A stretch of 64,000 nucleotides of DNA, taken from Eutreptiella sp. 'Long Island Sound 2002' (Eukaryota > Euglenozoa > Euglenophyceae > Eutreptiales > Eutreptiaceae). This document shows, piece by piece, positions 3,563 to 42,488 of the stretch. The stretch covers positions 120,003,199 to 120,067,198 of the forward strand of contig OZ038380.1 of the NCBI GenBank assembly GCA_964036045.1, read 5' to 3'. Under the pieces are notes generated by a model. It ran no database searches and was not told where the DNA came from. It was given only the letters and a program-made list of their open reading frames with translations. A program made the translations under genes and the position numbers. Numbering within the stretch: the first letter of the stretch is position 1; the number at the start of each line of letters is the position of its first letter.

Positions 3563-3990
3563 GGAGTGCTCCAGGCATACCATGACCTTCCGGGGCCCAC
3601 TGGACTGTCGCCCCATCGTATCCTGTTCCTACAGGATCGAGTGTCAAGCATTCTCCCGTGGTTGAACCATGGCAAAGTGGCCCGGGATGCGAACGCTATG
3701 ATGGCTGAGGCGGACGACACGGCGACCAAGGTGTGCAAAGCACTTCAGGTTGAGCATGAGAAGAGGGCCAAGTACTTCAAGCAGAGAAAGGTCCAGAAAA
3801 GTGCTCTCCAAGACACCGTATGGGTGGAGCGGCACCATAGGGATGTGCAGTCCAGGCATCGGCAGGCGTCCTGGTATGTGCCGGGGCTAATCGTGCGGAA
3901 GGTCGGGCAGGATGTGTATGCAGTTCGTGTGGGGGATAACAAGGTCCTGAACCGCGACCATACCCAGCTTCGTTCCCGAGCACCAGACCG
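3563..3990 (+). pseudogene. gypsy pol: C-terminal tail after integrase core
   Basis: The same frame continues past the TGA: TGLSPHRILFLQDRVSSILP is the usual region after the integrase core, then a Lys/Glu/Gln-rich helix (EKRAKYFKQRKVQKS). A short segment, SWYVPGLIVRKVGQDVYAVR, resembles the SH3/chromo-like C-terminal fold of gypsy integrases. Coding similarity stops at about 3985, exactly where the 65-bp tandem repeat starts. The apparent ORF to 4057 therefore ends in repeat sequence and not in a native C-terminus. Confidence 0.75.
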
Positions 3991-16441: not shown

Positions 16442-16730
16442 GCCTTGAAGGAAGGTGGCTCCCCACGGGTCCTGCTGGAGGCTCCGAACACCCCCTGGGC
16501 AGGACTTCCCGTGCCCTCCAGGCTGGTGCGCCCCGTTCACTGTAGACGGTGGCCCCCCCATCCGCCTTGCAGGAGGCTCCGAACACCCCCTGGGCGGGAC
16601 TCCCTGTGCCCCCCGGGTCGGTGCGCCCGGTTCTCTGAAAGACATGGCACCCCCTCGACCTGGCAGAAGGCTCCGAGCACCCCCTGGGCAGGACTCCCCG
16701 TCCCCCCCAGGTCGGTGCGCCCAGTTCTCT
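16442..16730 (+). repeat. 94-bp tandem array, left remnant (3 units)
   Basis: GGCTCCGAACACCCCCTGGG recurs with GCTCCG at 16481, 16575 and 16669 (94-bp steps), together with GGTGCGCCCGGTTCTCTGAA. The array stops in mid-unit at TTCTCT, where the DNA transposon is inserted, and resumes at 23643 in register. Confidence 0.93.
16726..16730 (+). repeat. target-site duplication, left (TCTCT)
   Basis: TCTCT precedes the left inverted repeat and is repeated at 23638-23642 after the right one. The uninterrupted array unit has GTTCTCTGA, so excising element plus one TCTCT restores it. Confidence 0.9.
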
Positions 16731-16752
16731 CTTAGCCCACGCAAACCGCACC
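16731..16752 (+). repeat. left terminal inverted repeat, 22 bp
   Basis: It pairs with 23616-23637 at 21 of 22 positions; the mismatch is at position 17 (C versus T in the same orientation). Looser similarity continues for about 90 bp. Confidence 0.92.
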
Positions 16753-16926
16753 TTGTTTTGCGCGCCGAATGCACAGAAAAGGACCGGTTCGCAACAGGGC
16801 AAAAAAACTATTTTTTTGGATGTTTGATGAACGTGATTTTAGACGTAGTGAAAAAAATTGCATTCTTAGTTTTGTGCAACTCCGTGTTCCCCAATGTGAC
16901 GTTCTTTACATTTCTCTGGCGTTCTG

Positions 16927-16948
16927 AGTGCGCGGGGCCTCGCGCACT
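16927..16948. repeat. palindrome copy 1
   Basis: Half-site AGTGCGCGGGG followed by CCTCGCGCACT; one mismatch from perfect symmetry. Not assigned to an intron. Confidence 0.9.
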
Positions 16949-17150
16949 CAAGATATTCAAAGTTGAGTTTATCACGAAACCTAAAAACCTGTAAGGACTG
17001 GCGTTTGCGGAAATACGCAGCTCCCACATGGTATTAAAAGTATGATAGTGTTGCCCAAGGAGCATTGGAAGTGTATGACTGTCAGACTTCCCATGTTAGG
17101 GGATACACATGTACTGTAAAGTGAGAGTAAAATACAAATTGAGGCATCCG

Positions 17151-17174
17151 GAGTGCGCGAGGCCTCGCGCACTC
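17151..17174. repeat. palindrome copy 2 (perfect, 24 bp)
   Basis: GAGTGCGCGAGG followed by its exact reverse complement. A TTTGCAG acceptor-like site lies about 35 bp downstream. Confidence 0.92.
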
Positions 17175-17337
17175 AGGTCACGTTATGCATTGAATTTGCA
17201 GAATTGAAATAACGCGTACAATTGTAGGTACAGTACCAGACGGACAAACACATTTGACTTTTTCAGGTGTATGTGTGTGTAGACACCATGTTGGTCAGAT
17301 ATAACGAGGTATAGAACATTGTCCCACGGAAACAATC

Positions 17338-17359
17338 AGTGCGCGAGGCCTCGCGCACT
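17338..17359. repeat. palindrome copy 3 (perfect, 22 bp)
   Basis: AGTGCGCGAGG followed by its exact reverse complement, upstream of the first coding region. Confidence 0.92.
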
Positions 17360-17824
17360 TAAACGACAGAGAAAAATGAAAAAGCAGACAGGTCACGCTA
17401 CGCCGGTATTTACATTCCCTTTCACAGCTACCACCTGTGACAGTCGGTTATACATTGGTAACATTCGTCATATTTTTCACGGGATCAGGGAAATAATTTG
17501 CTTTTTTCGAACAGCCACTCAATGGCAGACGTGTCCAGTTCTAATAGCGGCCGTAGCCTTCGCTGCCCGATAGATATGGTTTTTTTTTCAACTGGGTTTA
17601 AAGACGGAAACAGAATAAAAAGATTGTGGTTGCAAAAACGGTTTTCGATTACTGGGAACAGAGCGCACGCAGACACCAAATACAATCTGCGGCGGCAGCA
17701 CGCACACCAGAAATGACGACAGGAAAAGGCCAGATGTTTTTAAACACGCTTTTTTTAAAGATCGCTGTGCGAAACGATAACCAAAATATGTGCGGAAATC
17801 TAATTCCACAGAGAAAGACGCAAA

Positions 17825-18157
17825 ATGCCACTTCGAGCCAGAAAATCCGTAACGCATCGAATCATAGCACAAGTAAGCAAAGGAGCAGCAGCACTATGAG
17901 AGGCATGCGCGGCAGAACCAGCATACCAGACAGCAGACGACCCATGGAAAGGAGTGAAACGAAACGACCTGGCGGCGCAACTGGTTTTAACATTTGCACA
18001 GCGACTCAGGTTCAACAAAAGAACGCGCCACAGTTTTTTTTTTCCCACGGCGTTGGCCGCCACCCAACGCGCCAGTGTTTACCAGCAGCTAAAAGGCAGG
18101 AAGACAAGCGCTGGGTGCGCATTTTGCGACAGGAGGGCTGGAACCTGTGCCTGTTGA
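17825..18157 (+). pseudogene. transposon gene 1, N-terminal fragment
   Basis: From the ATG at 17825 the frame reads MPLRARKSVTHRIIAQVSKG. It hits one TGA (17897-17899), then continues with protein-like sequence (RNDLAAQLVLTFAQRLRFNK) to a Cys cluster (CAFCDRRAGTCAC) and a second TGA at 18155-18157. The placement of Cys residues suggests a small zinc-binding site, but I do not recognise the family. Whether it joins the 18318-19471 frame by splicing is unresolved; no clean GT-AG pair was found between them. It is either a separate small gene or the 5' exon of the transposase-position gene. Confidence 0.4.
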
Positions 18158-18317
18158 TGCGTCAACGGGCAGTACCAAACAGGAAAAAACCAGAAAAAAA
18201 ACAGGGTACCTAACGCAAACAGAAGGACGAACAAAAGTACGACTTGGGCAAGCAGACACTGCCGCAGATACAGTGGACTAACAGGCAGCAGCAGCACTTA
18301 AAGCAACATGGTCACTG

Positions 18318-19471
18318 GTGCTTTCGTCGTGTTGCGTGCTGTGGATAGACAACTGGTACCGGGCACAATACACGGCACACCCAGACGAAAGTGACCGGTC
18401 ACCAAACTGTACTGCAATGGCAGTACTTCAACTAAAGCAGAGCCCCACGTATTGCGCAGGACATCCAGCCATTGAGGACCCGGCAGCACGGATAACGACA
18501 GTCGCAAGGGGTCTGCAACAGCGTGAACGAAGAATCCCCCAGACTTTGCGTGACATGGGGTATGCAGATGGGTGTGCACCAGACACCGGAAACGTGAGAG
18601 CACCGTTGGATGTGAGGAGGGATGCAAGGACTGTGCAGGCACCGGTGTGGCGCCCGTTTGCCCTGTCAAAACAAAAGCTAACTGGTGGTGTTGGTCTGTT
18701 AAACTTGTTACACTTTGCAAAGGACGTAGCCCAACAGACAAACAGAGTTTTACCGCTGTTGGTTGAGGAAAACATACGCTACAGGATACTAAAGTTGTTG
18801 TACGGTGCAAAGAACCAACGATGGAACATGCGTGCGTACCTGCGTTACGTGCCTGTAGTTTACGGTGTCTGGCATGCCTACAAGTTCGTTGTTACTCATA
18901 TTTTTGGGGTGTTCTGGCCTATTCTAACCTATCTACGGAGAGGTCTGCTACGACCTGGTTCCACCATACTATACTATTATACCCCAAACTGATAGTTCAC
19001 GAAAAAACTATTGCTGCGCTGATGCTTGCGACACCCCGAATATTACGCCCGTATCGGCGCAAGGCACAAGCTGCAACCGCGATCAGCGGTTGTGACGCTG
19101 CGCATGCCAACAGGGCAGCAGTGGCAAACGCAGTTCTGCATTTGTTGTCCGAATGGTGCCCGTTGTTGTTGTACTTGGGCCACGTGGTATGGGAATGCAA
19201 CTGGTCAGGGGAAAACAACGGTACAGGGTCACGAGCTCAGGAGGTGTTGCAGTTGAGTTTGTGTCTGTTGAGGAGGCTGCGTCGAGGACCGTGTGACACT
19301 GTACTGAAGTACGAACGCACGATCATGTGCACATTGTTGTACAACAGCAAGTGGCACCACGACCTGCCCGGTCAGGCACACTCAGAGGAGTTTGGAGAAG
19401 GGATGTTGAGCAAGTTGGTGCGGGACAAGGCGAGAAACACGCGTTCTGTTACTGTTGAGGAGGTGGAGTAG
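18318..19471 (+). pseudogene. transposon gene 1, main body; transposase candidate by position
   Basis: Frame 0 runs from 18318 to about 18942 and frame 2 from 18996 to a TAG at 19471. They can be joined by a 53-bp GT-AG intron (18943-18995, phase 1), giving about 366 codons. Recognisable blocks are KQKLTGGVGLLNLLHFAKDV, RYVPVVYGVWHAYKFVVTHI and CDTVLKYERTIMCTLLYNSK. The GVWHAYK segment inside a hydrophobic helix resembles the His-containing blocks of several eukaryotic transposases, but I cannot assign a catalytic triad or a superfamily. The 5' boundary is not established; the ATG at 18318 may be fortuitous. The proposed intron lacks the palindrome found in all three introns of gene 2. Its location inside a TIR element makes transposase the best guess. 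Confidence 0.45.
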
Positions 19472-19501
19472 CATTAGTTGTTACTAAAGGTTGGTCCTGG
19501 T

Positions 19502-19866
19502 GGCAAACACGTGGGGGTGCAGAACGTTCCCAAGAACCTGGTACATAGGATGCGATGACGACTGACAAGATATTTGACGAGAGAGCGGATTTGCACGGCC
19601 TATGTGGAATGGAAGTGGGACAGAGTAAGCACCGTTGCAACTTCGTGGCCGCGGAGGTTACCAAGATTTCCACCCTCACCTACACAACCTCTTGGTCACG
19701 ATCACTACCGGCTACTTGGTCACAGCGTACTAGATGCCCTCATTAACCAGAAAAACAATCGCACCAACAAACTGAAACAGAAATTGGATGCTGTTGTGGG
19801 GCGGAGAACAGATATGGATGCCGACAGACAGGAAGCAGCAACACGCAACGTGCGGCAACGCTTGCG
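19502..19866 (+). pseudogene. short coding remnant downstream of gene 1
   Basis: Frame 2, the frame of the preceding exon, continues with protein-like sequence (GGKHVGVQNVPKNLVHRMR, then after a TGA, RTDMDADRQEAATRNVRQRL). It ends at a good donor, GTAAGT, at 19867. This may be the last exon of gene 1, with the stops at 19469 and 19556 being mutations or unresolved introns. No family was recognised. Confidence 0.3.
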
Positions 19867-19881
19867 GTAAGTGACGCCCGC

Positions 19882-19903
19882 AGTGCGCAAGGCCTCGCGC
19901 ACT
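19882..19903. repeat. palindrome copy 4
   Basis: AGTGCGCAAGG followed by CCTCGCGCACT; one mismatch. It lies 15 bp after a GTAAGT donor. Confidence 0.9.
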
Positions 19904-19938
19904 AAACGTTACGAAAAACAGGTATGCAATGCGATATG

Positions 19939-19960
19939 AGTGCGCAAGGCCTCACGCACT
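19939..19960. repeat. palindrome copy 5
   Basis: AGTGCGCAAGG followed by CCTCACGCACT; two mismatches. Confidence 0.85.
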
Positions 19961-20119
19961 GAGTAGTTCGCTAAGTGCCGTAGATTAAGTCACAACAAGG
20001 ACAGTTGTGGAACAGATTTGCGGAAACGACCTGCAAAATACCGTTTCGACTGTTTTCAGAATTCAAATGACCGTGTGTCATGTCATGCAATTTGCCTTTT
20101 TTAGGTATTGTTTGGCATC

Positions 20120-23072
20120 ATGAGTGAACGAGGGTCGCCAGAACGTCCAGCAACACACACAGAGGCCATGGAGTCGTCACTAGGGACCGACCAAGGGGAC
20201 ATGCCGAAGAAAGGACGCAAGAAGAAGGGTGAGAAGAAGCCAATACCGGAGATGAAGCTCACAGCCGATGTGCAACAGTGGCTGCGGCAGGAGAATGGTA
20301 AAGTGGTGAAGGTAAAGATTGCTGATTTGAGAATTGACAAGACCAAGGAGCGCGGACAGATCCGATCCATCAACTATGACGACGTTGCCAGGAAAGTGAC
20401 GGGATACCTAGCACTGCCACCAGCTGGACCGTTGCGCGTAACGGCGTCGGAGGATAGTGGTATGACTCGCTTCGCGTTCGATCGAAGACGTTTCTTCTCT
20501 TTGCTTCGGTTCATGATTTGCTTTGCAGATGGCTCACTTTACGTTCTGAATGGTCAACATGGCACAGAAACATGCAGAAAGATTCAGGAACTGCCTCTCG
20601 CAGAAGGCAAAGAATTGGGGGACTGGCAGGAGTTTTGCTACGTTGACATTCTGAAGTACGAAACGCCTTGGAGGATCCGGGCCAAGGTTGCAGGATTGCA
20701 ACAAGCGGGCAGCCAGTCTGTGACGTGGATTCCGCTGTCTGAGGCGCTGGACAACATGTTGTTGTACATTGAGGACCAGAAGCGGGAAAAAGAGCCACTG
20801 GATTTCGAGCGGTTCAAGATTGCTGTTGTCCAGGCTGCCGTCAACTCTGCGTTTCTTGCACCCGAGGTTTTGGAGGAAGCAGGACACACAGTATGTATTC
20901 GTGTATCGCACGGTTACAGTGCGCGAGGCCTCGCGCACTCCATGACACTGTTTTCCCTCGCAGGACTCAACATTCAAGAACTGGAGGGAAATCTTCCCCC
21001 TGGCGTATTACTGCGGTCGTGAGGCGGTTACTGGCATGAGAAACCTCGAGAATAAGAGCAGGAAAGACAAAGTTACAAGGAACGCCTTCAAGAAGCTGGA
21101 GGGGCTGCATCTACCGAGCTTATTGCAGAAAGTCTATGCGCACATGAACCTGAAGGACTCGACCTTACGCACCACCCAGAACTACATTGATGCGCATATT
21201 ACGGATCAATGGGTTTATTTCCATCTTTACCATCCGGACAATAAGCAGTAGGTCAACCAGACCGCAGGTATGCGTCAGTGTTGCAGCTTCAGTGCGCGAG
21301 GGCTCGCGCACTCAACCACCATTTTCACATCCGTACAGCTGCTGATGCGAAGATCCGAGAAGAGGTCGCAGCACTGGGCACGCCGCAACTGAAAATTGGG
21401 CTGGGAAATTGGGGTTACTGGCCGGACGCATCAAGTACGAAGTACCGGTCGCCGTGGCCAAAATGGAAGACGTTGACCAATGCACCTCTGTGGCGGACTG
21501 AGGACAAGGGCGCACCTCCATTACCGCAGACGCTGGCCGTGCGGAAACAACTGCAAAGGAAGACCGAGGCACCATCATTGGAACCGTCACAGACACAGCG
21601 GACTACTGGCGATGTGATCAATGTCTCTAAGCAGGACGAGCAAGGGAGCAAATTCTCTTTGACGGCCTGCCGCATTGAGGATATCCAAGAGACACCGCCA
21701 GCCCGTTTCGGGGATCTGCAGTACCCGTTGTGGGTCATCAACGTTGACCTTTTCGTTGAATATGACACTGCAGGATTTTTTCCGAAGTGGCTGTACGATG
21801 TGATGATGCTGGAGAAAGACCTCATTTTCTATGGCGAGGCTGATGTTGTGCACCGTATTGGCCGCGACATACAGAGGCTCTGGCGTATGGAGAAGGACAA
21901 GGATCCAACCAGAGTGCCATTCTACCATGTTCGGTTGCCGGTATACTCTTGGTTATCGGGTCCCGTGACCAGGAGTACGTATCAGTTCGACGAGCACTGT
22001 ATGTGGATCAGAACAACAAGTCGCTGGGATAAGCAGGTATATCTGCTTTACTCGCCTGTTACGATGCCGTTGTGTGCGCGAGGCCTCGCGCACTGCTGCC
22101 TCCATTATTTGTCTTTATACATCACATTCACAGTTGCCGAACTATGTGTCGTATTCTGCTGGACATTTCAAAGAGATGCAGACCAAGAACCTTGGTGGTT
22201 TCATGCCTCTGATTCACGTGCTGTGGTACCTGGACAAATATCTTTTGAGCAGTGGGTATTCTGATGCAGTGGTTGGTGTGGACGACACGCCTGCCATGGC
22301 CGCAAAGATTGCGATGTCCGACCTCCGTACTAAAGTGGCTTTTCTGGCTGTGTCAGCGATCAAGCAAAAGGACCTTGGGAATGCCGTTGGAGGTGCTCTG
22401 CAGCATGCAATCGTCATGCGGTACATGTTGGAGGATGATCAGACGGAACAGGGAACAACAGCTGCAACTTGGGATACTCAAGAGGACTGGCTTCAGCGTG
22501 GCATTCCACTGTGTGTTCTGGACAGCAACCGAGGGCATGAAGGGCACCGGCAGGTGCATGCTGCAGAGGCCGTCCAGGAAGATGTCGTGACTGAGGCTTC
22601 CGCTGAGGACACTGAGCCTGTCGCGCCTGCACCTACCTTGCCAATGCAAGCCAAGGTGAAGAGGACTGCCAAAGTTATACCAATTCAGGGTACTGCAGCC
22701 GGAAAGGGAACCCCCTCGAGTAGCAAGAAGCAGGCAAAAGGAAAGGAGAAGGAATCTAACAAGCCCGCAGAATCAGACGACGACGATGCCGACGAGGAGG
22801 AGGAAGAAGACGATCCGGAGCAAGTACTGGAGACCCAGCAGAAGCGCAAGCGGGCCCCAGCGACTCACTTCGATGCAAGCCCCGAATCTGGTAAGGAACA
22901 GCCGAAGAAGAAAGCGAAGACTGCTGTCACCGCTAGTGCAGAGTTCAAGCCGCCCTCGCGTTCTGGTGCCCAGCCGTCTCGTGGTACCGTTGCCTCTCCA
23001 AGTGGGACAAGTGCGGTGGCAAGAAGCCTGGGTTCCAGGTTGGCTAAGGTTGCGGGACTGAAGAAGAAATAA
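20120..23072 (+). CDS. transposon gene 2: four-exon protein with ParB/DGQHR-like motif
   Basis: Exons 20120-20890, 20964-21267, 21339-22036 and 22134-23072 join in phases 0, 1 and 0 to 2712 nt (903 codons plus stop). All introns are GT-AG with CAG/ACAG acceptors. The N-terminus is Lys-rich (KKGRKKKGEKK, likely nuclear). Residues about 140-155 read SLYVLNGQHGTETCRKIQE, which resembles the D/N-G-Q/H-H-R core of the ParB/sulfiredoxin/DndB-type fold. A central region has GNWGYWPDASSTKY and a hydrophobic block, ARFGDLQYPLWVINVDLFVE. The C-terminus is disordered, with an acidic run (DDDDADEEEEEDD) and basic stretches. One in-frame TAG at 21249-21251 (exon 2) means this copy is nonsense-mutated or needs readthrough. 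Function is unknown; DNA binding is an inference. The ATG at 20120 was chosen because the frame upstream has no other ATG and begins at a splice acceptor-like TTTAG. Confidence 0.75.
20891..20963 (+). other. gene 2 intron 1 (73 bp, phase 0) with palindrome
   Basis: GTATGTATTC donor, CCCTCGCAG acceptor. The palindrome occupies 20918-20939, about the middle. Confidence 0.9.
20918..20939. repeat. palindrome copy 6 (perfect, intron 1)
   Basis: AGTGCGCGAGG followed by its exact reverse complement, 27 bp from the donor and 24 bp from the acceptor. Confidence 0.95.
21268..21338 (+). other. gene 2 intron 2 (71 bp, phase 1) with palindrome
   Basis: GTATGCGTCAG donor, CATCCGTACAG acceptor. Phase 1 fits both neighbouring exons. 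The palindrome is at 21291-21312. Confidence 0.88.
21291..21312. repeat. palindrome copy 7 (intron 2)
   Basis: AGTGCGCGAGG followed by GCTCGCGCACT; one central mismatch. Confidence 0.93.
22037..22133 (+). other. gene 2 intron 3 (97 bp, phase 0) with palindrome
   Basis: GTATATCTGC donor, CACATTCACAG acceptor. The palindrome is at 22073-22094. Confidence 0.9.
22073..22094. repeat. palindrome copy 8 (intron 3)
   Basis: The GTGCGCGAGG core and its reverse complement are perfect; only the outermost A-T pair is lost. Confidence 0.93.
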
Positions 23073-23114
23073 GTCACCATTAACCCAAGTGTTTCGCCTC
23101 TTTTTGCGGTCATG

Positions 23115-23136
23115 TGTGCGCGAGGCCTCGCGCACT
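23115..23136. repeat. palindrome copy 9
   Basis: Perfect 20-bp core (GTGCGCGAGG plus reverse complement), 43 bp after the gene 2 stop codon. Confidence 0.92.
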
Positions 23137-23273
23137 CGCTTTCGACGCGAATGCAATTATATGCCCTTATGAGCTTGTACATTTTTGCCGAGCTTTCATT
23201 TCAGCGTTTGTATGTTGTGCACTTCCTGTCCTTTTCTTGTTGCCTTCTTTACACAATTGTTTCGATGACCTTG

Positions 23274-23295
23274 AGTGCGCAAGGCCTCGTGCACT
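23274..23295. repeat. palindrome copy 10
   Basis: AGTGCGCAAGG followed by CCTCGTGCACT; two mismatches. Confidence 0.88.
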
Positions 23296-23615
23296 CGGGG
23301 ACATAAAAAAGCAATTTATTTCGCAGGACAAACATAGGTGCAACTGGAGACCCGGGGAATGTCATTTTTGAAAATGAGCTCCCGAACAGGCACGCATTAG
23401 TTGGGTTTTGAAATACAAAAGCGACACCATTGGTAAAACACACCCTTCAAATCAGACAAAATAATAGTTTATTTTAATAAACAAACAGTGACAAAAAGCA
23501 GCAAATTGGGTAAAATTGTATTTTTTCGGTGGTATCTGAGTCATGTGTGCTGCAAATGTCAAAAAAAAATAGTTTTTCGGGCGGTCATTTTTCAGGTCCT
23601 TCTCTTCCAAAAGCG

Positions 23616-23637
23616 GGTGCAGTTTGCGTGGGCTAAG
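23616..23637 (-). repeat. right terminal inverted repeat, 22 bp
   Basis: GGTGCAGTTTGCGTGGGC then TAAG; reverse complement of 16731-16752 with one mismatch. Confidence 0.92.
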
Positions 23638-23642
23638 TCTCT
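23638..23642 (+). repeat. target-site duplication, right (TCTCT)
   Basis: Directly follows the right inverted repeat. The next bases, GAC, continue the 94-bp array unit. Confidence 0.9.
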
Positions 23643-24497: not shown

Positions 24498-27477
24498 TCA
24501 TTGCAGGAGTTGCACTGCCCACTGCCCCCAGGCAGTGAGGCAGTGCATTGCATAAGTTCCACTGCCCGCTGCTCTCAGGCAGTGAGGCAGTGGGTTGCAG
24601 AAGTTGCGCTGCCCACTGCCCCCAAGCAGTGGGGCAGTGCATTGCAGGCGTTGCACTGTCCAGTGCCACCAGACGGTGCGGCAGTGTTTTGCAGGAGTTG
24701 CACTGCTCACTGCCCCCAGGGCAGTGGGGCAGTGCATTACAGGAGTTGCACTGTTCACTGCCCCCAGGCCGTGAGGCAGTGCATTGCAGGAGTTGCACTG
24801 CCCATTGCCCCCAGGCAGTGAGGCAGTGCGTTGCAGGAGTTGCGCTGCCCATTGCCCCCAGGCGGTGCTGCAGCGTATTGCAGGAGTTGCACTGCCCACT
24901 GCCCCCGGGTAATGGGGCAGTGCGTCGCAGGAGTTGCACTTCCCACTGCCCCCAGGCAGTGGGGCAGTGCATTGCAAGAGTTGCACTGTCCATTCCTCCC
25001 AGGCAGCGAGGCAGTGCATTGCAGGAGTTGCACTGCCCACTGCCCCGAGGCAGTGGGGCAGTGCATTGCAGGAATTGCGCTGCCCACTGCCCCGTGACAG
25101 TGCGGCAGTGTATTGCAGGAGCTGCAACGCCCACTGCCCCCAGGAAGTGGGGCAGTGCATTGCAGAAGTTCCACTGCCCACTGCCCTCAGGGCAGTGAGG
25201 CAGTGCATTGCAGAAGTTGCACAGTCCAATGCCCCCAGGGCAGTGAGGCATTGCATTGTAGCAGTGCCACTGCTGACTGCCCCCAGGTAGTGAGACAGTG
25301 CATTGCAGGAGTTGCACTGCCCACTACCCCAAGGCGGTGCGGCAGTGTATTGCAGGTGTTGCACTGCCCACTGCTCCCAAGGCAGTGAGGCAGTGCATTG
25401 CAGGAATTCCACTGCCCCCTGCCCCCAGACAGTGGGGCAGTGCATTGGTGAACGTTGCACTGCCCACTGCCCCCAGGCAGCGAGGCAGTGCATTGCAGGA
25501 GTTGCACTGCCCACTGCCCCCAGGCGGTGAGGCAGTGCATTGGAGGAGTTGCACTGTCCACTGCCCCCGGGCAGTGAGGCAGTGCATTGCAGGAGTTCCA
25601 ATGCCCACTGCCCCCAGGCAGTGAGGCAGTGCATTTCATGAGTTCCACTGCCCACTGCTCCCAGGCAGTGAGGCAGTGCATTGCGGGACTTGCGCTGCCC
25701 ACTGCCCCCAGGCAGTGCGGCAGTGCATTGCAGGAGTTACACTGCCCACTGCCCCCAGGCAGTGGGGCAGTGCATTGCAGGCATTGCACTGTCCACTGCC
25801 CCCAGGGCAGTGAGGCAGTGCATTGCAGGAGTTGCACTGCCCACCGCCCCAGGGCAGTGAGGCAGTGCATTGCAGGAATTGCGCTGCCCAATGCCCCCAG
25901 ACAGTGCGGCAGTGCATTGCCAGTTGCAATGCTAACTGCCCCCTGGCAGTGGGGCAGTGCATTGCAGGAGTTGCGCTGCCCCTCGCCCCCAGGCAGTCAG
26001 CCAGTGGATTGCAGGAGGTCCACTGCCCAGCGCCCCGAGGGAAGGGGGCCGTGCATTGCACGAGTTGCACTGTCCACTGCCCCCAGGCAGTGACCCGGTG
26101 CATTGCAGGAGTTTCACTGCCCACTGCCCCCAGACAGTGAGGCAGTGCATTCGAGGAGCTGCACTGCCCACTGGCACCAGGCAGTGCGGCAGTGTATTGC
26201 CGGAGGTCCACTGCCCACTGCCCCCAGGCAGTGGGGTAGTGCATTGCAGGAGTTGCAGTGCGCACTGCCCCCAGGCAGTGAGGCAGTGCATTGCAGAAGT
26301 TGCACTGTCCACTGCCCCCAGGCAGTGATTTAGTGCATTGCAGGACTTGCACTGCCCACTGCTCCCAGGCAGTGAGGCAGTGCATTGCAGGACGTGCACT
26401 GCCAACTGCCCCAGGCCAGTGAGGCAGTGCATTGCAGGAGTTGCACTGCCCACTGCCCCCAGGCAGTGCGGCAGTGTATTGCCGGAGGTCCACTGCCCAC
26501 TCCCCCCAAGCAGTGGGGTTATGCATTGCAGGAGTTGCGCTGCCCACTGCCCTCAGGCAGTGAGGCAGTGCATTGCCGAAGTTGCACTGTCCACTGACCC
26601 CAGGCAGTGAGGCAGTGCATTGCAGGAGTTGCACTGCTCACTGCTCCCAGGCAGTGAGGCAGTGCATTGCAGCAGTTGCACTGCCCACTGCTCCAAGGCA
26701 GTGAGGCGGTGCATTGCAGGAGTTCCACTGCCCACTGCCCCCAGGCAGTGAGGCAGTGCATTGCAGGAGTTCCACTGCCCACTGCCCCAGGGCAGTGAGG
26801 CAGTGCAGTGCAGAAACTGCAATGCCCACTGCCCCCAGGCAGTGAGGCAGTGCATTGCAGGAGTTGCACTGCCCACTGGCTCCCGGCAGTGAGGCAGTGC
26901 ATTGCGGGAGTTGCACTGCCCACTGCTCCCAGGCAGTGAGGCAGTGCATTGCGGGAGTTGCACTTCCAACTGCCCCAGGGCAGTGAGGCAGTGCATTGTG
27001 GGAATTCCACTGCCCAATGCCCAAGGGCAGTGAGGCAGTGCATTGCAGGAGCTGCACTGCCTACTGCCCCCAGGCAGTGAGGCAGTGTATTGCCGGAGTT
27101 GCACTGCCCACTGACCCCAGGCAGTGCGGCAGTGTATTGCCGGAGGTCCACTGCCCACTGCCCCAAGGCAGTGGGGTAGTGCATTGCAGGAGTTGCACTG
27201 CCCACTGCTCCCAGGCTGTGAGGCGGTGTATTGCAGGAGTTCCACTGCCCACTGCCCCCAGGGCAGTGAGGCAGTGCATTGCATGAGTTCCACTGCCTAC
27301 TGCCCCAGGGCAGTGAGGCAGTGCATTGCAGAAATTGCACTGCCCACTGCGCCCAGGCAGTAAGGCAGTGCATTGCAGGAGTTGCACTGCCCGCTGCCCC
27401 CAGTCAGTGAGGCGGTGCATTGTAGGAGATGCGCTGCCCTCTGCCCCCAGGCAGTGAGGCAGTGCGTTGCGGGAGTT
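24498..27477 (+). repeat. 47-bp repeat array, block 1 (about 63 units)
   Basis: The unit is GCATTGCAGGAGTTGCACTG, then CCCACTGCCCCCAGGCAGTG, then AGGCAGT; starts at 24781 and 24828 illustrate the 47-bp step. Each unit contains CACTGCCCACTGCC, a CCCA loop and GGCAGTGAGGCAGTG, a self-complementary stem with one bulge. The minus strand lacks stops in all three frames (546-codon spurious ORF). Confidence 0.96.
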
Positions 27478-28973
27478 TTTTCTTTTTTTACGTAGACCAG
27501 TTCGAAACAAAGTTCTGGGCCGGGGCACCACCCCATGCTGAGTACATTGGAAAGGGGTATAACATACAAGAAGGGAGGTAAGTTCGAGGGTCATGGGTCA
27601 TGCATGGCAGTTGTGTGTAAGGTTAGCCCTCTCCCTTCTTAATTCGCTTTTTGGGTGGTGCTGAGGAAGGTTTGGGTAGAGGCCTTGACCAATATTATGG
27701 TGAAGGTGGTGTGGGGGAGGGTCGTGCTGGTGGTGGTGGTGCTGTGCGCTGCAGGAATGATTGAGGTCTAGTTGACTGTGACCTGGAGCTGGGCTGTGAC
27801 CTCTTTCTCACCTTCAGTGGTATGGGTGGCGGTGGAGTGTACCCCTGTGGTGCACGCCGTTTTCTATGCTTAGGAAGGAAAGAAGTGCTTTAGTTGGAGT
27901 TTGGTGTGCTGAAGTGGTTGATTCCTGAGCGAACGGTTGGAAGTGACGGAGGGGGGTGGTCCTGCAGCCACTGGTGACAGGTGTGGACCGCTGTGGTAAT
28001 GGCTGGACGTCTGTGAACCAGAAATGCAGAGAGCTGCTCTGGCGTCATTCCCATCGAGGCTTTAAGCTTGGCATGCAGTGAAGCTGGCACAAGTGTGCAA
28101 ATAAGGTTTCGTTTATCGCCGGGACGTGCGGACGACCACCAGGGGAGCACAAGTTGCAAGGTACTCGAAGGCCAGGCTCTCAGGAAAAGGTCTTGCAGGA
28201 ACTAAAGCGAAGTGCAGTGACTCAGCATAGATAATGGGTCCAAAGGGTGAAATTCATGGCACATTTAACATCGGTAGGAGAACATGTCGTGGTGAGACGG
28301 GAAACCTTCCACCCACAAGGTCGCGGATGTCCAGAGAAATGGCAGATTGTCCAGCTTGGATGAGTGACGGTACCAGTCATAGCTACAGAAGTGATCGAGT
28401 GCAGAGTGAAAATGCATTGGGGAGACATGCGACAGATCTTTGTTTTTTAGTTTGTTCGTGAGTGGAATCCCATTGAGAGATATGCAACCTTTCGGGGGGG
28501 GTGAGATCAGGTTAGGATGTGGGGGGCAGCTGTAGTAGATCCATTTTGCAAGCGCATCAGCGACTTCATTTCCCAAAAAACCCGCGTGGACCTTTATCCG
28601 GGCGACTTCTACTACTGCCTGGATATTGTGTAATTCTCTTTTGAAGGCTACCAACCAGTTGTAACGAGGTGTCTCTGACTTAGGTTGAGTCGGGCGCTGT
28701 GAAGGCTGATCGTCTGCTGCTTTACCGAACACAGAAACTACCTCAGAGTTATCTGAAAGGATGCAGATGTGCTTGGCTGGGAAGTGAAGCCTGATGAAGC
28801 GCAAACAGGAAAGAAGTACCCAAAAACTCTGCATCACCCGACCCGCGAAAGGGGGAAGGGATGGCAATGGCGAATGTAGGGGCATTGTGCGGGAAAAAAA
28901 CTGCCGCTGCGCCAGTGAGTGAGTTTTTCTTCCGAACCATCAATGTAAACCCGTAATGCTTGAAGGGGTGCGC
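27478..28973 (-). mobile_element. 5'-truncated LINE fragment with poly(A) tail inserted in the 47-bp array
   Basis: On the minus strand it ends in TAAAAAAAGAAAAAA next to the array (27478-27490). The array word GGAGTT is duplicated at 27472-27477 and 28974-28979, a likely target-site duplication. The 5' end (right side) starts inside an RNase H domain. The region 27491-28260 is the 3' part and carries only a weak 89-codon frame (27890-28159). Confidence 0.8.
28265..28973 (-). pseudogene. LINE RNase H domain
   Basis: Read leftward: VYIDGSEEKLTHW (first catalytic Asp), a frame change near 28880, then HICILSDNSEVV (second Asp) and KVHAGFLGNEVADALAKW (the GNExAD end motif with the last Asp). These are RNase HI hallmarks as found at the C-terminus of I/Jockey/Tad-type non-LTR elements. 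The following ~90 residues (KGCISLNGIPLTNKLKNK) are typical post-RNase H linker. The upstream RT has been lost by 5' truncation. Confidence 0.82.
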
Positions 28974-29118
28974 GGAGTTGCACTGCCCGCTGCCCCCAGG
29001 CAGTCGGGCAGTGCATTGCAAGAGTTCCACTGCCCACTGCCCCAGGGCAGTCCGGCAGTGCATTGCAGAAGCTGCACTGTCCACTGCCCCAAAACAGTGA
29101 GGAAGTGCATTGCGGGAG
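28974..29118 (+). repeat. 47-bp repeat array, block 2 (about 3 units)
   Basis: A short island of the same array between two retroposon insertions. Confidence 0.93.
29106..29118 (+). repeat. 13-bp target-site duplication, left
   Basis: TGCATTGCGGGAG, repeated exactly at 29913-29925. Confidence 0.9.
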
Positions 29119-29912
29119 TAAGTAAGTAAGTAAGTAAGGGCGGCCGCGGCTGCAGCCTCATCTGACATCTCCCTGTTTGTTTTACATGGTGGCCGCCTCT
29201 GGCGGGAAGAAGAGCTCACCACCATCAGTTCCCCTGGTGACCCCTGTCTCACATCCCGGCCGAGAACTGCAACCAGGTTCCCTTGGGGCATGACCGGCGG
29301 TAGGCTCCCTTCAGTCGCTGCCCTCACGATTTCAGCTCCTTCAGGTCACCCTTTGAAGGATCCCCCGGCCTTCCCCCCCTAGCACAGCCTATTAGGCGCC
29401 TGCAGGCGGGTTTCCTGTGGATAGCCCTCGCCGACAGCTGAGCATTTCTCTCTGTCAACCACATTCCACCACTCCCCATCCCTCACGGGTTGGACTACCC
29501 ACTCGGCTCCCGGATGCACTTGGGTGTCGTCCATCCACGGCTGGAGGCCAGGGGGCGACCCTTTCCATGTTCCCCCTGGTCCCGCTCACGCGTGAACCTA
29601 AGTGTACTCAGGCCATTGACCCAGGGCATCTCAAGGTCAACCCTCACCCCTGCGGACACCTCACGTCCGTCCCGGAGTTCAGGGCATTTTCCTGACTTCC
29701 CGTGGGCAGGTTCCCCATGGTTGGCCCATGGTTCACCACTCCATGGCGACTGGTTTCCCAATCCCATGGGGCTGTTGCTTGGCGCTTTCGGTCTCCCTGC
29801 CCATCCCATGTCCCATTCCCCTTTGCCTCATCCCGGCACCTGCCCGTTTCGAGCTTCCCATGGACTCCCTACCCCGTCAGGCCGTTGTGCGGCCCTAGCC
29901 ACACGCACTTCC
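29119..29912 (-). mobile_element. 794-bp (TTAC)n-tailed retroposon inserted in the 47-bp array
   Basis: Its 3' end on the minus strand is (TTAC)n; the plus strand reads TAAGTAAGTAAGTAAG from 29119. A perfect 13-bp target duplication flanks it. The minus strand near the tail can be read as REMSDEAAAAAALTYLLTYS, an Ala run followed by translated tail. A 105-codon minus frame (29495-29809) has no recognised domain. It is probably a 5'-truncated LINE or a non-autonomous derivative. Confidence 0.85.
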
Positions 29913-32900
29913 TGCATTGCGGGAGATCCACTGCCCACTTCCCCGGGGCAGTGAGACAGTGAATTGCAGAAGTTGCGCCGCCCACTGCCCGGAGGCACTG
30001 AGGCAGTGCAGGGCAGGAGTTGCACTGTCCACCGCCCCCAGGCAGTGAGGCAGTGCATTGCAGGAGTTCCACTGCCCACTGCCCCCAGGCAGTGAGGCAG
30101 TGCAGTGCAGGAGTTGCACTGTCCACTGCCCCCAGGCAGTGAGGCAGTGCATTGCAGGAGTTCCACTGCCCACTGCCCCCACGGCAGTGAGGCAGTGCAT
30201 TGCAGGAGTTGCACTGTCCACTGCCCCCAGCCAGTGAGGCAGTGCAGTGCAGGAGTTGCACTGTCCACTGCCCCCAGGCAGTGAGGCAGTGCATTGCAGG
30301 AGTTGCACTGCCAACTGCCCCAGGGCAGTGGGACAGTGCCTTGCAGAAGTTGCACTGCCCGGTCCCCCCAGGCAGTGGGGTAGTGCATTGCATGAGTTCC
30401 ACTGCCCCCTACCCAGGGCAGTGAGGCAGTGCATTGCAGAAGCTGCACTGTCCACTGCCCCCAGGCAGTGAGGCAGTGCATTGCAGGAGTTCTCCTGCCA
30501 ACTACCCCAGGGCAATGAGGCAGTGCATGACAGGCATTGCGCTGCCCACTGCCCCCAGGCAGTGAGGCAGTGCATTGCAGGAGTGTTACTGCCCACTGCC
30601 CCAGGGCAGTGAGGCAGTGCATTGCCGGAGTTGCGCTGCCCATTGTTCCCAGGCACTGAGGCAGTGCATTGCACGAGTTCCACTGCCCACTGCCCCCAGG
30701 CGCTGAGACAGTGCATTGCAGGAGTTGCACTGTCCACTGCCCCCAGGCAGTGAGGCGGTGCATTGCAGGAGTTGCACTGTCCACTGCCCCCAGGCTGTGA
30801 GGCAGTGCACTGCAGGAGCTGCAGTGCCTACTGCTCCCAGGCAGTCAGGCGGTGCATTGCAGGAGTTCCACTGCCCACTGTCCTTAGGCAGTGAGGCAGT
30901 GCATTGCAGAAATTGCACTGCCTACTGCCCCCAGGCAGTGAGGCAGTGCATTGCAGGAGTTGCACTGCCTGCTGCCCCCAGTCAGTCAGGCAGTGCATTG
31001 CGGGAGTTCCACTGCCCACTGCCCCTAGGCAGTGGGGCAGTGCGTTGCAGGAGTTGCACTGCTCACTGCCCCAGGGCAGTGTGGCAGTGTATTGCAGAAG
31101 CTGCACTGTCCAGTGCCCCGAAACAGTGCGGCAGTGCATTGCGGGAGTTCCACTACCCACTGCCCCAGGGCAGTAAGGCAGTGCATTGCAGGAGTTGCGC
31201 TGCCCACTGCCCCCAAGCAGTCAGGCAGTGCATTGCAGGAGTTTCACTGCCCACTGCCCCAGGATAGTGAGGCAGTGCATTGCAGAAGTTGCACTGCCCA
31301 CTGCCCCCAGGCAGTGGGGTAGTGCATTTCAGGGGTTCGACTGCCCTCTGCCGCAGGGCAGTGAGGCAGTGCATTGCAGAAGCTGCACTGTCCACTGCCC
31401 CGAGGCAGTGAGACAGTGCATTGCAGGAGTTGCACCGCCTACTGCCCCCAGGCAGTGAGGCAGTGCATTGCGGGAATTCCACTGCCCACTGCCCCAGGGC
31501 AGTGAGGCAGTGCATTGCAGGAGTTGCGCTGCACACTGCCCCCAGGGCGGTGGGGCATTGCATTGCAGGAGTTGCACTGACCACTGCCCCAAGGGCAGTG
31601 AGGCTGTCCATTGCAGGGGTTCAACTGCCCACTGCCCCAGGGCAGTGAGACAGTGCATTGCAGAAGTTCCACTGCCCACTGCCCCCAGGGCAGTGAAGCA
31701 GTGTGTTGCAGGAGTTGCACTGTCCAGTGCCCCAGGGCAGTGAGGCAGTGCATTGCATAAGTTCCACTGCCCACTGCTCCCAGGCAGTGGGGCAGTGCAT
31801 TGCAGGAGTTGCACTGCCCACTGCCCCCAGGCAGTGAGGTAGTGGATGGCAGGAGTTGCACCGCCTGCTGCCCCCAGGTGGTGAGGTGGTGTATTGCAGG
31901 AGGTCCACTGCCCACTGCCCCAAGGCATGGGGGCAGTGCATTAGGGGATGTGCACTGCCCGCTGTTCGCAAGCAATGAGGCATTGTATTGCAAGCGTTCG
32001 ACTGCCCAATGCGAGAGGAAGTGCATTACAGGAGTTCCACTCGCGACTGCCCCCAGGCAGTTGTGCAGTGCATTGCAGGAGTTGCACTGTTCACTGCCCC
32101 CAGGCAGTGCGGCAGTGCATTGCATGAGTTCCACTGCCCACTGCCCCAAGGGCAGTGCGGCAGTGCTTTGCAGGAGTTGCGCTGCCCACTGCCCCCAGGC
32201 AGTGGGGCAGTGCATTGCAGGAGGTCCACTGCCCACTGCCCCCAGGGCAGTGAGGGAGTGCATTGCAGGGGTTCCACTGCCCACTGCCCTCAGACAGTGA
32301 GGCAGTGCATTGCAGGACATCCACTGCCCACTGCCCCCAGACAGTGGGGCAGCCCATTGAAGGAGGTCCACTGCCCACTGCCCCCAGGCAGTGAGGTAGT
32401 CTGTTGCAGGAGGTCCACCGCCCACTGCCCCGGGGCAGTGGGGCAGTGCATTGAAGGAGGTCCACTGCCCACTGCCCCCAGGCAGTGAGGCAGTGTATTG
32501 CAGGAGGTCCACTGCCCACTGCCCCCAGGCAGTGGGGCGGTGTATTGCAGGAGGTCCACTGCCCACTGCCCGCAGGCATTGGGGCAGTGCATTGGGGGAT
32601 GTGCATTGCCCGCTGCTTCCAAGCAATGAGGCAGTGTATTGCGGGAATTCCACTGCCCACTGCGAGAGGCAGTGCATTACAGGAGTTCCACTGCCCACTG
32701 CCCCAAGGCAGTGGGGCAGTGTATTGCAGGAGTTGCACTGCTCACTGCCCCCAAGCAGTGCCGCAGTGCATTGCAGGAGTTGCACTGCCCACTGCCCCCA
32801 GGCAGTGAGGCAGTGCATTGCAGGAGGTCCACTGCCCACTGCCCCCAGACAGTGAGCCAGTGCATTGCAGGAAGTCCACTGCCCACTGCCCCCAGGCAGT

Positions 32901-35215
32901 GGGGCAGTGCATTGAAGGAAGACCACTGCCCACTGCCCCCTGGCAGTGAGGCAGTGTGTTGCAGGAGGTCTACTGCCCACTGCCCCGGGGCAGTGGGGCA
33001 GTGCATTGAAGGAGGTCCACTGCCCACTGCCCCCAGGCAGTGAGGCAGTGTATTGCAGGTAGTCCACGGCCCACTGACCCCAGGCAGTGAGGCGGTGTGT
33101 TGCAGGAGGTCCACTGCCCACTGCCCCCAGGGCAGTGAGGCAGTGTATTGCAGGAAGTCCACTGCCCCCTGCCCCCAGGCATGGGGGCAGTGCATTGGGG
33201 GATGTGCACTGCTTGCTGCCCCGGAGCAATGAGGCAGTGTATTGCGGGAGTTCCACTGCCCACTGGGTGAGGCAATGCATTACAGAAGTTCCACTGCCCA
33301 CTGCCCGGAGGCAGTGGGGTAGGGTATTGCAGGAGTTGCACTGCCCACTGCCCCGAGGCAGTGAGGCAGTGGATTGCAGGAGTTGTGCTGCCCACTGCCC
33401 CCAGGGCAGTGAGGCAGTGGATTGCAGGAGGTCCACTGCCCACTGCCCCAAAGCAGTGGGGCATTGCATTGCAGGAGGTCCACTGCCCACTGCCCCCAGG
33501 CAGTGTGGCAGTGCATTGCAGGAGTTTCACTGCCCACTGCCCCGAAGCGGTGAGGCAGTGCATTGCAGAAGGTCCACTGCCCACTGCCCCCAGTCAGTGG
33601 GGCAGTGCAATGCAGGAGGTCCGCTGCCCGTTGCCCCCCTGCAGTGAGGTAGTGTATTGCAGGAGGTCCACTGCCCACTACCCCCAGGCAGTGATGCAGT
33701 GTATAGCAGGAGTTCCACTGCCCACCGCCCCCAGGCGGTGGGGCAGTGCATTGCGGAAGGTCCACTGCCGACTGCCCCAAGGCAGTCGGGCAGTCCATTG
33801 CAGGAGTTCATCTGCCCACTGCCCCCAGGCAATGAGGCAGTGCATTGCAGGAGATCCACTGCCCCCTGCTTCAGGCAGTGGAGCAGCGTATTGCAAAATC
33901 CCACTGCCCACTGCGCCCAGGCAGTGAGGCAGTACGTTGCAGGAGGTCCACTGCCCACTGCCCCCAAGCAGTAAGGCAGTGTGTTGCAGGAGGTCCACTG
34001 CCAACAGCCCCCAGGCTGATGGGCAGTGCATTGAAAGAGGTCCACTGCCCACTGCCTGCAGGCAGTGAGGCTGTGTATTGCAGGAGTTCCACTGCCCACT
34101 GCCCCCAGGGCAGTGAGGCAGTGTATTGCAGGAAGTCCACTGCCCCCTGCCCCGGGGCATGGGGGCAGTGCATTGGGAGATGTGCACTGCCCGCTGCCCC
34201 CAAGCAATGAGGCAGTGTATTGCGGGAGTTCCACTGCCCACTGTGTGAGGCAGTGTATTACAGGAATTCCACTGCCCACTGCCCAAAGGCAGTGGGGCAG
34301 TGTATTGCAGGAGTTGCCCTGTCCACTGCCCCCAGGCAGTGAGGCAGTGGATTGCAGGAGTTGCGCTGCCCACTGCCCCAAAGCAGTCAGGCAGTGGATT
34401 GCAGGAGTTCCACTGCCCCCTGCCCCCAGGCAGTGAGGCAGTGCATTGCAGGTGGTCAACTCCCCACTGCCTCCAAGCAGTGAGGCAGTGCATTGCGGGA
34501 GGTCCTCTGCCCACTGCCCAGAGGCAGTGGGGCAGTGCATTGCAGGAGGTTCGCTGCCCGTTGCCCCCGGGCAGTGAGGTAGTGTATTGCAGGAGGTCCA
34601 CTGCCCACTGCCCCGGGGCAGTGAGGCAGTGTATGGCAGGAGTTCCAATGCCCACCGCCTCAGGCAGTGAGGCAGTGCATTGCAGAAGTTGCACCGCCCA
34701 CTGCCCCCAGGCAGTGGGGAGGTGCATTGCGGAAGGTCCACTGCCGGCTGCCCCAAGGCAGTGGGGCAGTCTATTGCAGGAGTTAATCTGCCCACTGCCC
34801 CTTGGCAGTGAGGCAGTGCATTTCAGGAGATCCACTGCCCCCTGCCAACAGGGCAGTGGAGCAGCGCATTGCAAAAGTCCCACTGCCCACTGCCCCCAGG
34901 CAGTGAGGCAGTGCGTCGCAGGAGGTCCACTGCCCACTGCCCCCAGGCCGTGGCGCAGTGCGCCGCAGGAGTACCACTGTCCACTGCCCCAGGCAGGGCG
35001 GCAGTGTATTTCAGGAGATGCCCAGCCCACTGCCCCAAGGGAGGGAGGCAGTGAGTGGCGCGAGTACCACTCCCCACTGCCCTCAGGCAATGCGGCAGTG
35101 CGAAGCACGATTTCCACTCCCCACAGCCCCGAGGCTGCCTGGCAGTGCGTTACACTGCCCACTGCCCTCTGCCCACAACAACAGTGCAGCAGGGCACACA
35201 CAGTGCAGTGCATTG
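29913..35215 (+). repeat. 47-bp repeat array, block 3 (about 112 units)
   Basis: Same unit as block 1. Variants with GGAGGTCCACTGCC dominate from about 31.9 kb on, giving local subfamilies. A ~960-bp block seems duplicated within it: 32.59-33.24 resembles 31.93-32.05 and 33.19-34.28, with GGGGGATGTGCACTGCC-like units. The minus strand is open for up to 683 codons. The last ~130 bp to about 35345 are degenerate. Confidence 0.95.
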
Positions 35216-42330: not shown

Positions 42331-42488
42331 CAATGACCGCAAGGTGGTCATCCAGGAGGTGTTAACCAGCTTCAAACGCCAACACCATGCAGAGGACGGA
42401 GTGCTATCCCACTACACTAAGCACCTGATATCACACCTACCGCAACTGCACAACCGAGCACAACGACACGACGTGCACCGCACCCGCT

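Follow-up and report, generated by a model that had tools for sequence, protein, structure and literature searches.

A DNA transposon of Eutreptiella with ten palindromes at fixed places in its non-coding sequence

Described systems and how the element compares

VANDAL21 of Arabidopsis is a multi-gene DNA transposon with a sequence-specific anti-silencing protein, VANC21; VANC motifs recur many times in non-coding regions including introns, are specific to a family and vary between related families (PMC5735166; PMC10398659). In CACTA/EnSpm elements the transposase is accompanied by a second protein, TnpA, which binds repeated cis motifs, some of them palindromic (PMC2613891). For Sola-1, it has been proposed that an accessory prokaryote-like DNA-binding protein acts on the transposon that carries it (PMC12477816).

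The transposon described here resembles VANDAL21 in having a family-specific motif that is repeated in non-coding regions, introns included, and that takes a variant form in a related family. The two differ in the make-up of the motif: VANC motifs are short (YAGTATTAY), run in the same orientation and are tandem, whereas our element has single 22-bp dyads spaced along its length. Gene 1 of the element had no match to a MULE/VANDAL transposase in Pfam, which is a profile miss only. The CACTA element described with TnpA has CACTA termini and a 3-bp target site duplication (TSD), compared with CTTAGCC termini and a 5-bp TSD here (PMC2613891). CACTA/EnSpm membership was rejected on these two features together with the lack of a tnp2-type transposase match in Pfam. 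The element's sites, unlike those of CACTA/EnSpm, are not confined to the ends. Unlike the Sola-1 accessory protein, the pieces of gene 2 gave no detectable ParB or methyltransferase domain in Pfam or NCBIfam.

The 5-bp TSD is shared with Ginger2/TDD, Transib/ProtoRAG and hAT5. Transib/ProtoRAG elements have 5-bp TSDs and Transib/RAG termini are of the CAC type; membership of this group was rejected given CTTAGCC termini and no RAG1-like match in Pfam. Pfam likewise returned no hAT (hAT5) transposase match for the 672-aa frame of gene 1 and no Ginger2/TDD Gypsy-integrase-like transposase, and the element could still be a very distant member of either. As far as Pfam, NCBIfam, PHROGs and PDB can say, the family looks unassigned to known superfamilies. 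Among the matches listed in a string search of the open-licence literature, neither the palindrome core nor the TIR string occurs; the string AGTGCGCGAGG is in one unrelated Drosophila paper and TTGCGCGAGG in the others. A topical search of that literature gave no paper.

The element, its genes and its copies

The window, which is the whole 64-kb stretch of DNA that was analysed, contains an old, degenerate full-length copy of 6,907 bp (16731..23637, forward strand), whose limits follow from its terminal inverted repeats (TIRs), its TSD and a comparison with the 17 other full-length copies aligned to it. The left TIR (22 bp, 16731..16752, forward strand) and the right TIR (22 bp, 23616..23637, reverse strand, the reverse complement of the left) agree at 21 of 22 bases, and the TSD, TCTCT, was read from the sequence at 16726..16730 and 23638..23642. 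A sequence-only reading had proposed these repeats and this duplication, and its coordinates proved exact. There were no further TIR matches in the window at ≤3 mismatches and none in 100 shuffles. A 94/95-bp tandem array stops at 16730 and is detected again from 23650; read by eye, it picks up in register on the far side of the element, as had also been proposed. The window copy is broken. Its CpG observed/expected ratio is 0.91, against 0.66 for the window, and this lack of depletion gives no pointer to heavy methylation. Scans of the window for tRNAs and against Rfam found nothing.

Gene 1 (17825..19870, forward strand), the presumed transposase gene, is broken in the window copy. It forms a single 672-codon open frame in 8 of the 18 full-length copies, and this frame is open at 66 of 66 scored places, top of 8,566 candidates. 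Gene 2 (20120..23072, forward strand) has four exons (20120-20890, 20964-21267, 21339-22036 and 22134-23072) encoding about 904 aa, with an in-frame stop at 21249-21251 in the window copy. Its predicted introns 1 (20891..20963) and 2 (21268..21338), both on the forward strand, are bounded by GT..AG in 18 of 18 aligned copies; predicted intron 3 (22037..22133, forward strand) has GT..AG, and GT..AT in at least one of the 18. Judging by dN/dS (0.12-0.47 for gene 1, 0.27-0.57 for gene 2), both genes are under constraint, gene 1 being the more constrained of the two.

The two proteins had been said to fit no nameable superfamily, and this stood in so far as neither had a credible match in Pfam, NCBIfam, PHROGs or PDB. 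The few listings at E 0.02-5 were at chance level and all under curated cut-offs where these are given; for the 672-aa frame, Pfam to E = 5 gave one such listing and no transposase. In neither protein did these four libraries recognise a DNA-binding or transposase domain, and no DDE/D catalytic triad could be assigned in gene 1. No viral, phage, plasmid or prokaryotic relatives were found, apart from one chance-level match (E = 7). Gene 2 has an NGQHG/SGQHS motif that is also kept in a divergent relative; presumably this conserved (N/S)GQH motif recalls ParB/DGQHR proteins, a likeness supported by no search. Single-sequence AlphaFold models were unusable (mean pLDDT 36.6 and 42.0).

When the host genome assembly (2.28 Gb) was searched, the TIR matched 2,217 ends at ≤1 mismatch (1,120 + 1,097; control 1, 1 + 0) and the palindrome gave 7,782 occurrences (control 0). 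There are over a thousand copies in the host genome, short ones counted. An exact 5-bp TSD was present in 35 of the 37 copies with both ends read and missing in the other two, and a 6-bp match was seen in none of 25 copies checked. As its inverted repeats occur on many dispersed copies with a fixed 5-bp TSD, the element is a TIR cut-and-paste DNA transposon (class II). All ten palindromes sit at the same places in 17 of 18 full-length copies, and nine in the remaining one. The sequence-only reading, which had pictured many copies sharing TIRs, 5-bp duplications and palindromes at fixed places, is borne out by these counts. A chance origin of the TIRs and palindromes is ruled out by the zero matches in shuffles, and a local or single-copy feature by the genome-wide counts of both. 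Fifty of the 7,782 palindrome places were listed, and these fall in 19 regions, every one of them containing one or more TIRs; in 18 of the 19 the palindrome-TIR distance, by reading, is as expected. Across these 50 places the palindrome goes with the element, and an independent genome-wide repeat is ruled out for them. A closely related set comprises ten copies 0-1.07% apart, two of them without any difference; from this, and from the fully open 672-aa frame, we conclude that the element is, by sequence comparison, recently active in its host.

The palindromes: placement, constraint and a variant in a relative

Each palindrome consists of two 10-bp arms (AGTGCGCGAG / CTCGCGCACT) flanking a variable central dinucleotide. 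A pattern search at ≤3 mismatches found ten in the window, every one within the element, and 0 in 100 shuffles. The earlier claim that none lies elsewhere in the 64 kb therefore holds; that of ten copies of one palindrome holds as to number, but in this old copy only three are perfect and seven have 1-2 mismatches. Palindrome 1 is subterminal on the left (16927..16948), 2 and 3 are in 5' non-coding sequence (17152..17173 and 17338..17359), 4 and 5 lie between the genes (19882..19903 and 19939..19960), 6, 7 and 8 are inside introns 1, 2 and 3 of gene 2, one in each (20918..20939, 21291..21312 and 22073..22094), 9 is in 3' non-coding sequence (23115..23136) and 10 is subterminal on the right (23274..23295). 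The exons of both genes are free of palindromes (0 of 10), for which random independent placement would give (0.289)^10 = 4e-6. Half of the ten, the two intergenic and the three intronic ones, are more than 1.5 kb from either element end. The window copy also has a 52-bp duplicated segment with a palindrome, at 22043 and 23244.

Substitution patterns show the palindromes to be under selection in full-length copies. Pairwise divergence among seven copies was 0.037 in palindromes versus 0.077, a level reached by 0 of 500 random block sets, and the lower value holds in CpG and in non-CpG columns alike. Inherited variants occupy 4 of 220 palindrome columns versus 211 of 1,887 other columns (Fisher p = 8e-7), so that palindromes are about six-fold poorer in inherited changes. 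Private changes are also somewhat fewer (37 in 220 palindrome columns versus 513 in 1,887), so that selection on inherited copies need not account for the whole of the difference.

Short copies of 1.2 kb have interiors unrelated to the long element and keep its ends and three palindromes; four that were compared with it had little in common with it beyond these. All 15 short copies, 11 picked by TIR alone, have the three palindromes; in most copies these lie about 197 bp from one end and, measured from the other, at about 343 and 500 bp, at sites corresponding to outer sites of the long element. Across 13 short copies palindromes diverge by 0.041 versus 0.051 elsewhere, only a weak difference, and at one of the three sites at least 10 of the 13 have a change within an arm. 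A 121-bp duplicated segment carrying a palindrome was seen in short copies.

The divergent relative (L052/L053) keeps both genes, gene 1 being 38-46% identical and gene 2 about 32%, and has palindromes at places corresponding to those of the window family. Its dyad, of TTGCGC type, is a variant with a paired outer-base change, G:C to T:A, and has 7,587 genomic occurrences at ≤1 mismatch, with repeated spacings; the first 50 variant places all lie 22 kb or more away from the 50 listed window-type places. The genome appears to hold two families with two dyad variants. A CTGCGC-type dyad had 0 exact matches in the host assembly. Another locus (L051), picked for its motif, turned out to be a short gene 1 remnant beside a tandem array.

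What the palindromes may do

We favor, as a rather probable explanation, a two-gene cut-and-paste transposon whose palindromes are bound by its own dimeric protein, most likely that of gene 2, in a regulatory or anti-silencing role like that of VANC or TnpA. The gene 1 product would be the transposase and the palindromes would be sites required in cis, to which a dimeric DNA-binding protein encoded by the element binds; such a cis role is suggested by the retention of three palindromes in every short copy. Sites near the ends may help to mark them for transposition, and through the other non-coding sites, including those in introns, the protein, probably the gene 2 product, may coat the whole element so that its genes stay expressed against host silencing.

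Gene 1 could be the palindrome binder itself. The palindromes would then be sites for the gene 1 transposase or for assembly of a transposition complex, gene 2 would have another role and the internal sites would be extra. Short copies keep palindromes only towards their ends, like the outer sites of the long element, a pattern as compatible with end recognition as with anti-silencing, and of the two proteins that of gene 1 is under the stronger constraint. However, with five of ten sites more than 1.5 kb from the ends, end recognition alone is insufficient, and we regard this explanation as unlikely, if one to be taken seriously. We consider it improbable that the palindromes bind a host promoter or enhancer factor that the element exploits. 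Any dimeric binder would yield equal conservation, but all 50 listed palindromes (of 7,782) are in regions with element ends, with no host use seen, and the variant dyad of the relative points to a co-evolving reader encoded by the element.

Each intron of gene 2 contains one perfect or near-perfect hairpin, as might be expected if the palindromes acted as RNA hairpins in the transcript, whether as a splicing aid, for stability or as a small-RNA source; several sites, however, lie upstream of gene 1 or downstream of gene 2, or in short copies without genes, and this explanation too strikes us as quite improbable. The relative's G:C to T:A pair suits readout as DNA or as RNA and decides nothing between them. 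That some palindromes lie in visibly duplicated segments (121 bp and 52 bp) would suit functionless by-products, arising from internal duplications or as a small mobile unit of their own. Against this are the scarcity of inherited changes in palindromes and the conservation of their placement in a relative so divergent in gene 1, and we hold it to be very improbable indeed.

A few plant systems (VANC, TnpA) are known to have transposon-encoded self-recognition. The element described here adds a case that is recently active and high in copy number, with presumed sites that are long, cannot be mistaken and can be counted across the genome. With such sites, and with the apparent dyad variants of the two families, one can test directly how a transposon protein and its sites co-evolve, and likewise how elements escape silencing.

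Copy number, activity and state of the element

The element (16731-23637) is bounded by 22-bp inverted repeats (TIRs), identical at 21 of 22 positions, and a TCTCT duplication, and it sits within a 94-bp tandem array that flanks it on both sides, as the sequence-only reading had it. A second subterminal motif, about AAAAACTATTTTTTT, is common to both ends (16801-16819 and 23561-23579). Searches of the 2.28-Gb assembly holding the window returned 1,120 + 1,097 matches to the TIR (at most one mismatch; reversed-pattern control 1 + 0) and 7,782 to the palindrome (at most two mismatches; control 0), the latter possibly taking in some sites of a second family, since those can be two mismatches away. 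By the same reading, a palindrome spread genome-wide independently of the element would have spoken against the interpretation; we found a TIR in all of the 19 regions taken to cover the 50 palindrome places among the matches listed. Judged by eye, the TIR-palindrome distance is 187-343 bp in 18 of these regions, matching the window, and the sole TIR of the remaining one (L009) lies approximately 1.5 kb from the palindrome. A further 25 copies were chosen by TIR pairs among the 100 TIR ends listed. Exact 5-bp target site duplications (TSDs) flank 35 of the 37 copies having both ends (12 + 25), the exceptions being L007 (one base off) and L027 (no match); a 6-bp match was seen in 0 of 25 copies tested. 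High TIR copy number and 5-bp duplications together bear out the transposon reading: the element is a multi-copy transposon that has been active recently. Ten of the 18 full-length copies (6.4-7.0 kb, window copy included) form a young group with a mutual divergence of 0-1.07%, and the 0.00% difference at aligned sites between L027, the copy with no TSD match, and L026, a copy roughly 17 Mb away on C1, provides evidence for very recent movement.

Gene 1 (17825-19870) lies upstream of gene 2 (20120-23072; four predicted exons, ~904 aa). Gene 1 has a 672-codon frame that runs without interruption at 66 of 66 scored places (the best 66 of 8,566 first-look candidates) and is whole in eight of the 18 full-length copies; gene 2 is open in 11. 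Eight comparisons per gene against one young copy put pairwise dN/dS at 0.12-0.47 (gene 1) and 0.27-0.57 (gene 2), values pushed up by dead copies, and these ratios therefore indicate past purifying selection on both genes.

The window copy itself is old. It diverges from the other full-length copies by 5.8-14.9%, its gene 1 frame is lost and its gene 2 carries an in-frame stop (21249-21251) absent from the seven other copies displayed. Its gene 1 also holds ~44 extra bp (18033-18076) that are missing from 16 other aligned full-length copies, L011 being deleted across this region.

Elsewhere in the window there is a Gypsy-type reverse transcriptase/RNase H open frame (1301-2434; Pfam RVT_1, RT_RNaseH), 65-bp tandem arrays (3990-5454 and 62248-64000) and, to the right of the element, a 10.6-kb array of a 47-bp unit (24499-35135; ~226 copies). 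Two perfect 22-bp palindromes around TGCCCCGGGGCA within this last array (32421-32442 and 32976-32997) are unrelated to that of the element. Two matches under the Pfam cut-offs are possibly retrotransposon remains: a weak one to RNase H (28268-28939, minus strand; E = 0.007) and one to reverse transcriptase (42421-43023, plus strand; E = 0.13).

Placement and conservation of the palindromes

Ten palindromes had been claimed for the element and none for the rest of the 64 kb, and both counts stand at up to three mismatches (shuffles gave none); in the window copy three are perfect and seven have one or two mismatches, with CpG transitions making up five of the nine. Each of the three predicted gene 2 introns holds one; the other seven comprise three 5' of gene 1, two in the intergenic spacer and two 3' of gene 2. 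None falls in a coding exon, whereas a random 22-mer would avoid the exons with probability 0.289. Their places are fixed, as predicted: all ten are present in 17 of 18 full-length copies and nine in L005. The 180 site-by-copy cells comprise 97 exact sites, 67 with one mismatch, 13 with two, two with three and one gapped. In long copies, fixed departures most often affect the outermost base and the middle dinucleotide, for which GC, GG, GA and CC were observed overall; the site is therefore best described as a pair of 10-bp arms flanking two free central bases, a layout that would suit a dimeric protein. The regions around palindromes 8 and 10 (22043-22094 and 23244-23295) are 79% alike across 52 bp, so local duplication may spread some palindromes. 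One 8.27-kb copy (L039) has twelve, with a spacing that suggests an internal duplication of ~1.4 kb.

Palindromes diverge less than their surroundings. Among seven copies (the divergent L013 left out) palindromes showed a divergence of 0.037, whereas random non-coding blocks averaged 0.077, and of 500 sets of ten such blocks drawn at random none had a value that low. The difference holds at CpG columns (0.064 versus 0.139) and non-CpG columns (0.021 versus 0.064). Variants common to at least two of eight old copies, and therefore probably inherited, occupy four of 220 palindrome columns as opposed to 211 of the 1,887 remaining non-coding columns (Fisher p = 8e-7); private changes show a smaller depletion (37 in 220 versus 513 in 1,887).

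Fifteen copies are only 1.16-1.21 kb long, each with both TIRs and three palindromes, and the TIR was the sole criterion in selecting 11 of them. In the first four examined, similarity to the long element is confined to the ends, the palindromes and short adjoining stretches (up to ~80 bp at one end); therefore, cis sequences, not genes, are common to both forms, and such sharing ordinarily points to what the machinery would need. Most have one palindrome ~197 bp from one terminus and, measured from the opposite terminus, two more at ~343 and 500 bp, in agreement with the long element; L047 instead has the left-end triplet. Among 13 mutually alignable short copies the difference in divergence is weak (0.041 versus 0.051 elsewhere), and one site carries a change inside an arm in at least ten of the 13, unlike the long-copy pattern. 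Short copies also show a duplicated ~121-bp segment around a palindrome and, near one end, a motif resembling AAAAACTATTTTTTT in opposite orientation. Two of them ~46 kb apart (L042 and L043) share the TSD CTACA, through chance or local duplication.

A proposed role for the dyads

It is very likely that some protein reads the dyads. We lean somewhat towards the gene 2 product as the putative reader: it would bind dyads as a dimer and coat the element, the outer palindromes assisting transposition and the internal ones keeping the element's genes on. That anti-silencing is the main role is a more tentative proposal. In Arabidopsis VANDAL21, the transposon's protein VANC21 occupies short motifs in its non-coding regions, introns included, with accompanying loss of DNA methylation (PMC5735166, PMC10398659), which makes it the closest working analogue; another is TnpA of CACTA elements, a protein that binds subterminal repeats (PMC2613891). 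In every compartment, divergence at CpG columns is 1.6 to 3 times that at other columns, a pattern to be expected from methylation of inserted copies, but CpG observed/expected in the window copy is not low (0.91), which counts against methylation.

A divergent relative and the affiliation of the element

Searching for codon variants of the gene 1 motif WIDNWY located 41 places, L013 among them, and two were examined further. One (L051) is only a remnant; the other (L052/L053) is a broken yet recognisable element whose gene 1 is 46% and 38% identical across two pieces and whose gene 2 is ~32% identical. A perfect 18-bp dyad directly follows its gene 1, a second lies 55 bp beyond (57 in the window), a third falls inside a gap, possibly an intron, in gene 2, and a further one, half decayed, is close to the intron 1 place. 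The better arms read TTGCGCGAG or similar, versus GTGCGCGAG. The dyad TTGCGCGAGGCCTCGCGCAA has 7,587 genome matches (at most one mismatch; control 0), exact window-type sites being left out because they differ at two bases, and a CTGCGC variant has no exact match; with thresholds of two, one and zero mismatches, the three counts are not strictly comparable. Spacings recur among the first 50 TTGCGCGAGGCCTCGCGCAA places (286 four times, 814-816 six times, 982 twice, 2115-2118 three times), none of which lies within 22 kb of the 50 window-type places among the matches listed. It is therefore likely that this assembly holds another high-copy family with a dyad variant of its own, L052/L053 being a candidate member.

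Queried in pieces, the window exons and frames had no credible match in Pfam, NCBIfam, PHROGs or PDB, nor did the uninterrupted gene 1 frame in Pfam or PDB or pieces of the relative in Pfam, in keeping with the lack of a superfamily match claimed from sequence. A GQH motif in gene 2, kept in the relative (NGQHG/SGQHS), is reminiscent of ParB/DGQHR proteins, a resemblance that no Pfam or NCBIfam match to gene 2 pieces backs. Ginger2/TDD, hAT5 and Transib/ProtoRAG elements likewise have 5-bp TSDs, but gene 1 matches no transposase model in Pfam. Overall, the finding is real and the sequence-only reading of it is supported. The element is a class II transposon, an already known kind; its palindrome system and proteins without a profile match would make it a new variant at least and, judged by Pfam, NCBIfam, PHROGs and PDB profiles and structures, possibly a new superfamily.
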